From Cryomorpha ignava (GTDB taxonomy: Bacteria > Bacteroidota > Bacteroidia > Flavobacteriales_D > Cryomorphaceae): a DNA stretch of 64,000 nucleotides. The notes below the pieces were generated by a model. That model made no database searches, had not been told where the DNA came from, and saw only the letters and a program-made list of their open reading frames with translations. This document shows positions 52,446-52,732 of the stretch, piece by piece. The position numbers and the translations under genes were made by a program. The DNA lies in the NCBI RefSeq assembly GCF_010686655.1, contig NZ_JAAGVY010000001.1:1-64000 (forward strand). Reading direction: 5' to 3'. Positions within the stretch are counted from its first letter, which is position 1. Every line of letters starts with the position of its first letter.

Positions 52446-52478
52446 TTTGCTTTTTACATAAATTATACTCTAAATTTG
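52446..52478 (+). promoter_or_regulatory. Promoter of the met leader/metY-metX-hom operon
   Basis: TTTG (52446-52449), 21-bp spacer, TAAATTTG (52471-52478), a textbook Bacteroidota promoter. Transcription should start near 52485, some 14 nt before the leader peptide ATG. Confidence 0.7.
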
Positions 52479-52498
52479 TCATTCCTATTGAAAGGACA

Positions 52499-52591
52499 AT
52501 GAATAATTCTTCGCTACATATTTCTATTACCAGCGCAATGCCTACTCACATGATGTGTTTTATGTGTTGTATGTGCACCTGCATGCGCTGA
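52499..52591 (+). CDS. Methionine/cysteine-rich leader peptide
   Basis: 30 codons, ATG at 52499 to TGA at 52589-52591. The sequence runs MNNSSLHISITSAMPTH followed by MMCFMCCMCTCMR. Seven Met and five Cys in all; the last 13 residues hold five Met and five Cys. AAAGGA stands two bases before the ATG. It lies about 20 bp after the promoter and 140 bp before metY, and its stop codon is inside a sequence repeated in the attenuator hairpin. This is the classic arrangement for ribosome-mediated attenuation, where stalling at codons for scarce methionine or cysteine controls the downstream operon. That it is translated and regulates is inference. Confidence 0.75.
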   Translation: MNNSSLHISITSAMPTHMMCFMCCMCTCMR

Positions 52592-52680
52592 AGCGAAAGA
52601 AATCCCATTAAGTAAATTTTATGTGATACTTGCCCGCTGAAGCCTATGCTTCGGACGGGAATTCCTGTATCCAGTCCCCT
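52586..52680 (+). promoter_or_regulatory. Attenuator-like alternative hairpins ahead of metY
   Basis: Segment 1, CGCTGAAGC (52586-52594), spans the leader stop codon. Segment 2 is the same nine bases at 52635-52643. Segment 3, GCTTCGGACGGG (52648-52659), can pair with either. With segment 2 it forms an 11-bp hairpin (CCCG/CGGG plus CTGAAGC/GCTTCGG, one bulged A). Its 3' part (GGAC at 52653-52656) can also pair with GTCC at 52674-52677 to form a weaker hairpin, followed by TCGTTTTATC. Thus pairings compete. The T tract is not strong, so whether control is by transcription termination or translation is open. Confidence 0.6.
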
Positions 52681-52732
52681 CGTTTTATCTCTCTACGCTT
52701 TTATCTAATAATCCATATAAATCTCAAAAATC

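Follow-up and report, generated by a model that had tools for sequence, protein, structure and literature searches.

The metY locus and its leader ORF

The window analysed here is the whole stretch of 64,000 nucleotides from Cryomorpha ignava (contig NZ_JAAGVY010000001.1). On its forward strand, metY (O-acetylhomoserine sulfhydrylase, 52733–54073) was identified with the NCBIfam model TIGR01326 with a score of 675 bits (cut-off 495). It is followed at 54073–56112, on the same strand, by a gene in which metX (homoserine O-acetyltransferase) is fused to homoserine dehydrogenase, also recognized with NCBIfam. Both matches agree with the gene order given by the original prediction, which had been made from the letters alone. 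The homoserine dehydrogenase model was matched up to position 324 of 430 only, and the fusion seems to be devoid of the usual C-terminal part of this enzyme. Genes for aspartate kinase and lysA lie on the far side, in the opposite orientation.

Upstream of metY, two promoter elements are predicted from the sequence on the + strand: a −33-like TTTG (52446–52449) and a −7-like TAAATTTG (52471–52478). They match what we take to be the usual Bacteroidota promoter pattern, as had been proposed. From the −7 box it is about 20 nt to the leader ATG, which predicts a short 5′ UTR, and in several relatives a TAnnTTTG-like box was seen by eye about 20 nt ahead of the leader start. The leader ORF, recovered from the sequence and the ORF list, has 30 codons (MNNSSLHISITSAMPTHMMCFMCCMCTCMR and a stop; 52499–52591, + strand), and comparable leaders are present at the related loci L003, L005, L032 and L033. 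The count of 5 Met and 5 Cys among its last 13 residues, MMCFMCCMCTCMR, stands as first described. The putative regulatory codons, Met-Met-Cys-Phe-Met-Cys-Cys-Met-Cys-Thr-Cys-Met, cover 52550–52585 (+ strand), the Cys run near the C-terminus being the conserved feature. The 5.0-Mb genome holds a single exact instance of this Met/Cys coding pattern. The leader ends 141 nt ahead of metY. An Rfam scan of the window gave no family at gathering score, SAM-I or any other riboswitch included, in line with the original prediction. The fold of the leader region compared to shuffled sequences gave z = −3.0.

Three segments of the + strand downstream of the regulatory codons are of importance for what follows. 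Segment 1 (GCATGCGCTGAAGCG, 52581–52595) contains the leader stop codon. Segment 2 (CGCTGAAGCCTATGC, 52635–52649) provides the 5′ arm and the loop, and segment 3 (GCTTCGGACGGG, 52648–52659) the 3′ arm, of a terminator-like hairpin (52633–52659, + strand, −16.1 kcal/mol), which is followed by AATTCCTG and carries no U-tract. Elsewhere in the window, U-tract terminators were found at 5 of 48 long-ORF ends. The element CGCTGAAGC is present twice, at 52586–52594 and 52635–52643, and the spacing of 49 nt between the two copies is as originally noted.

Recurrence of Cys/Met leaders ahead of sulfur genes

metY loci were gathered from named genomes as well as from the order, class and phylum to which the window belongs. 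Enrichment was tested on 80 non-redundant metY upstream regions against 1600 dinucleotide shuffles, by counting Cys among the 15 C-terminal residues of ATG-ORFs. The best short ORF carried at least five Cys in this interval in 28 of the 80 regions, compared to 0.0 expected from the shuffles, and at least three in 46, compared to about 2 expected. Met was enriched too (6 regions with at least five, 0 expected), and amino acids other than Cys and Met showed no enrichment in the same regions compared to shuffles. No comparable excess was observed in stretches taken 1 kb farther upstream. Short ORFs rich in Met and Cys are thus recurrent upstream of metY in other Bacteroidota, as the original prediction would lead one to expect.

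Leader Cys codons are mixed (307 TGT, 208 TGC), as expected under codon selection. The N-terminal parts and the lengths of the leaders vary freely; the part retained is the run of Cys and Met shortly before the stop. Cys leaders ahead of metY were found in several order-level families and in many families of the class, and also outside the class in some families (L235, L244, L250, L266, L267, L277, L281 and L290). At most metY loci outside the class, a SAM-I-like motif is present alone. Leaders also occur ahead of metX (L201 and L202, the gene being named by eye from the protein start) and, at L210, ahead of an OsmC-like gene (named by eye) located about 630 nt before metY. In Chitinophagaceae and similar bacteria (L052, L057, L059, L063, L064 and L107), leaders end with CMP before the stop, and in several of these the stop codon is within the loop of ATGCC-GTAA-GGCAT.

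A search for the pattern MCCCC covered 198 genomes, and 30 loci were inspected. Most matches were chance-like; those at L198, L201, L202, L210, L212 and L213 were leader-like. At L212 and L213, the leaders (MYNKRNTFNFYKSRMHAMMRMCCCCCCC and MSSKRNMFNFPKNQMHANMRMCCCCCCSCC) are positioned 52 nt ahead of a phytanoyl-CoA dioxygenase-like gene (named by eye), which is perhaps a sulfur-source gene. In the C. ignava genome itself, none of 29 four-Cys-codon matches was in a short ATG-ORF. The same genome (L223/L292, G000:C44) carries a 21-codon ORF with Cys-Cys, MLTNSIFNIYCCTSFHDKGEA, ahead of cysE-cysK, and cysE is immediately preceded by a perfect U-tract terminator. Together they are a candidate for a second Cys attenuator in this genome; the ORF has two Cys only, and 1:2 pairing is weak there (−7.8 kcal/mol). 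In genome G009 of the same order (L295), cysE comes after two Met/Cys leaders, MMCCPKQ and MLMKLNNENKMMCTMCCLQFTEGNWLCCY, and each leader has a terminator-like hairpin with a T-run downstream of it (all by eye).

Pairing of the leader end with the downstream hairpin

A strong U-tract hairpin was found after the leader stop in 22 cases, mostly within 40 nt. At about ten loci, such as L112, L113, L177, L188 and L191, leader-like ORFs and terminators are arranged in tandem. The closest relative of the window, L003 (metY 82% identical), has a perfect terminator, GAGCCCGCTGAAGTACACCTTCAGCGGGCTT then the U-tract TTTCGTTT (−23.6 kcal/mol), where the window has CCCGCTGAAGCCTATGCTTCGGACGGG then AATTCCTG. 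No U-tract follows the hairpin in the window or in L004, L005, L032 and L033, that is, in four of the five nearest relatives.

In the original prediction, both copies of CGCTGAAGC competed for the 3′ arm at 52648–52659. We compared pairing of the leader tail (segment 1) with the hairpin 5′ arm (segment 2) and with the 3′ arm (segment 3), each against shuffles. For the 22 leader/terminator pairs, mean z was −1.90 for 1:2 (p ≤ 0.05 in 12 of 22) and −0.42 for 1:3 (p ≤ 0.05 in 3 of 22). The z values of 1:2 pairing within the window lineage were −3.1 for the window (with the shorter arm), −3.1 for L003, −2.1 for both L004 and L005, −1.6 for L032 and −0.4 for L033, where it is no better than shuffles; the corresponding 1:3 values were −1.5, −0.2, −0.1, −0.4, −1.9 and +0.7. 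The hypothesis had already been formed when eight leader/hairpin pairs were found outside the class; their 1:2 values were −3.7, −3.3, −3.6, −4.1, −1.9, −0.4, −5.3 and −2.5, and their 1:3 values lay between −1.3 and +1.8, none of the latter being significant. Finally, arms were swapped among 35 loci: leader tails paired better with their own 5′ arm (−14.1 kcal/mol) than with those of other loci (−9.4 kcal/mol; permutation p < 5e-5), and the 3′ arm was not locus-specific (p = 0.08). Pairing of segment 1 with segment 3 is therefore unsupported both against shuffles and against swapped loci, and this part of the original prediction has to be replaced: the conserved pairing joins the first copy to the second and to the flank of the latter, as a 1:2 antiterminator with a tandem G-A mismatch, set against the 2:3 hairpin.

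In the window, the antiterminator (−16.5 to −17.7 kcal/mol) joins GCAUG.GCU[GA]AGCG with CGCU[GA]AGC.UAUGC. This is possible because CGCTGAAGC is nearly self-complementary around the tandem G-A mismatch, which also explains the duplication noticed at the outset. Comparison of the pairs by hand in the six lineage sequences revealed a change from A-U to G-C in L004 and a bulged helix in L005.

Folding was also computed for defined ribosome positions. The 1:2 duplex formed in 26 of 28 cases when the ribosome was placed on the middle Cys codon and the nascent RNA extended up to the hairpin loop, and in none when the ribosome stood at the stop codon. At equilibrium, once segment 3 is present, the 2:3 hairpin was the more stable in most folds, stalled ribosome included. 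The switch must therefore be kinetic and need folding during transcription.

Attenuation, its alternatives and the SAM-I riboswitch

On the computed evidence (the leader and how often it recurs, 1:2 pairing specific to its own hairpin, the hairpin itself, and intrinsic terminators in relatives), we regard the metY leader as quite probably a ribosome-mediated attenuator reading the charging of both Cys-tRNA and Met-tRNA. Transcription would start just upstream of the leader ORF, with a ribosome trailing the RNA polymerase. When Cys or Met is scarce, the ribosome would stall at 52550–52585 and leave segment 1 free to pair with segment 2 as soon as the latter is made; segment 3 would then stay single and the polymerase would read through into metY-metX-hom. 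When both amino acids are ample, the ribosome would reach the stop codon and cover segment 1, the 2:3 hairpin would form and transcription would end before metY. Translation, stalling and the nature of the signal are what we infer from these elements, and so is termination at the window hairpin, since this hairpin has no U-tract: either it halts the polymerase without one, or Rho does. The attenuation reading of the original prediction is retained, on the basis of the phylum-wide comparison, for the leader peptide and for the exposure of segment 1 by stalling and its masking by full translation; its pairing scheme is abandoned, and its emphasis on stalling at Met codons gives way to Cys as the predicted general signal.

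As read from the leaders, the general signal is predicted to be Cys, with Met as a second signal mainly in lineages without SAM-I at the operon. Rfam scans placed SAM-I directly upstream of the leader at many loci. In the class sample, a canonical terminator was present at none of 50 loci with SAM-I and a Cys leader, compared to 13 of 26 without SAM-I (Fisher p 7e-8, uncorrected for relatedness). The last 20 leader residues contained 3.4 Met without SAM-I versus 1.8 with it (p 5e-6, uncorrected for phylogeny). SAM-I is absent genome-wide from the window genome and from three members of its family with this metY (G001, G003 and G006), and is present in 19 of 22 other genomes. SAM-II occurs once each in G001, G003 and G006; none (RF01726) was found in the window genome. 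A strict exclusion between SAM-I and terminator-bearing leaders was considered and rejected: L266, L267 and L290, outside the class, have both, with SAM-I downstream of the leader terminator, so that the exclusion is a tendency and not a rule. In this sense only, as a tendency, the window lineage may use Met codons in place of the riboswitch. It is conceivable, and we propose it tentatively, that a large group of Bacteroidota has a two-input switch, in which the 3′ end of SAM-I abuts the start of a Cys-run leader and SAM gates leader translation, while window-type lineages, devoid of the riboswitch, would use the Met codons of the leader as second input.

At L120-L134 (family f8), SAM-I and a Cys-run leader are followed, before metY, by a conserved GGGCCC element without U-tract, possibly another expression platform; as this element is conserved and loci with SAM-I and a Cys leader have no U-tract, a second stop mechanism may exist. 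L066 carries SAM-I on both strands and SAM-II within 7.3 kb. A 2007 survey had found no species having both the SAM-I and SAM-II classes (PMC2258182).

A variant of the attenuator keeps the same leader and the same sensing, with a stop that would be Rho-dependent or a hairpin pause, Rho loading on untranslated RNA at 52660–52720 after the ribosome leaves at 52591. Being a variant of the preferred reading, its probability overlaps with that of the latter, and we consider it a serious, though the lesser, possibility. It would account for the missing U-tract, both in the window and in L004, L005, L032 and L033, as well as for the 50 class loci with SAM-I and a Cys leader that also lack a canonical terminator, and the stretch 3′ of the hairpin is indeed C-rich and G-poor. 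However, Bacteroidota 5′ UTRs are generally G-poor, L003 has its perfect intrinsic terminator at the equivalent place and cysE of the same genome uses a U-tract terminator. Control at the level of translation, in which the leader would govern access to the metY start codon, appears unlikely. It has a precedent in the leaderless polycysteine short ORFs of mycobacteria, described as Cys-responsive translation attenuators (Canestrari 2020, as reported in PMC9094748 and PMC13236596); against it, the hairpin ends 73 nt from the metY ATG, the stretch ahead of this ATG is unpaired in the fold, and relatives have U-tract terminators. A further idea is that the ORF encodes a metal-binding or secreted small peptide without any regulatory role. 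Short Cys- and Met-rich peptides can bind metals, but here conservation is limited to the Cys/Met run near the stop, the tail codons build the antiterminator and tandem units have two different leaders with a terminator after each, which makes such a function highly improbable. That the ORF is a functionless product of chance is harder still to believe: 30-codon ORFs are frequent by chance (ten ORFs of at least 20 codons were counted in 600 bases), but chance would explain neither why such ORFs reappear at the equivalent position in other genomes (28 of 80 regions versus 0 expected) nor the specific 1:2 pairing.

Leader-peptide attenuation is well known from Proteobacteria and from a few other groups. 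Classical ribosome-mediated transcription attenuators include the trp, his and ilv leaders of Proteobacteria and the ilvB1 leader of Mycobacterium tuberculosis (PMC13236596). Like these, the metY leader is a short ORF with clustered end-product codons near its stop, has exclusive antiterminator and terminator structures set, by computation only, by the position of the ribosome, and precedes a biosynthetic operon. It differs by the combination of Cys and Met codons, by a stop codon inside segment 1 and by the tandem units of its relatives, and there is no known sequence relation. The U-tract of an intrinsic terminator is present in L003 and in many distant relatives and absent from the window, so that we describe the window copy as attenuator-like and do not file it as a full trp-type member. 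With the mycobacterial polycysteine ORFs, as far as the reports cited above describe them, it shares Cys codons clustered close to the end of a short ORF ahead of sulfur genes and, in the window, a predicted short 5′ UTR; the phylum, the added Met codons, the metY, metX and cysE targets and a terminator/antiterminator in place of translational control set it apart.

Within Bacteroidota, Bacteroid-trp RNA (RF01692) is listed as a cis-regulatory motif (PMC2864571), strong clues for leader-peptide attenuation ahead of unspecified amino-acid operons were reported in Flavobacterium psychrophilum (PMC9723704), and short ORFs within long 5′ UTRs were noted in B. thetaiotaomicron (PMC7366714). The metY leader resembles the first two as a cis-regulatory leader of this phylum; unlike it, their reports mention no Cys/Met leader in the main texts, and the window matches no Rfam family. 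It would control the same operon as the SAM-I riboswitch (RF00162) does in Bacteroidota metY operons; SAM-I itself was found neither in the window nor in any of the four metY-bearing genomes searched in its family. In the openly accessible main texts that were searched, no earlier account of Cys/Met leaders in Bacteroidota came up.

The recurrence of tiny Cys/Met ORFs ahead of this operon suggests, from sequence comparison, that the cell senses shortage through ribosome stalling and would then turn the operon on. Leader-peptide attenuation appears here as a widespread control of sulfur metabolism in Bacteroidota, acting alone, in tandem or beside SAM-I. It can be tested for the sharing or exchange of one input between a sensor of a metabolite (the SAM riboswitch) and a sensor of tRNA charging (the leader codons). 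Many of the short, Cys-rich ORFs of Bacteroidota may accordingly be regulators and not proteins.
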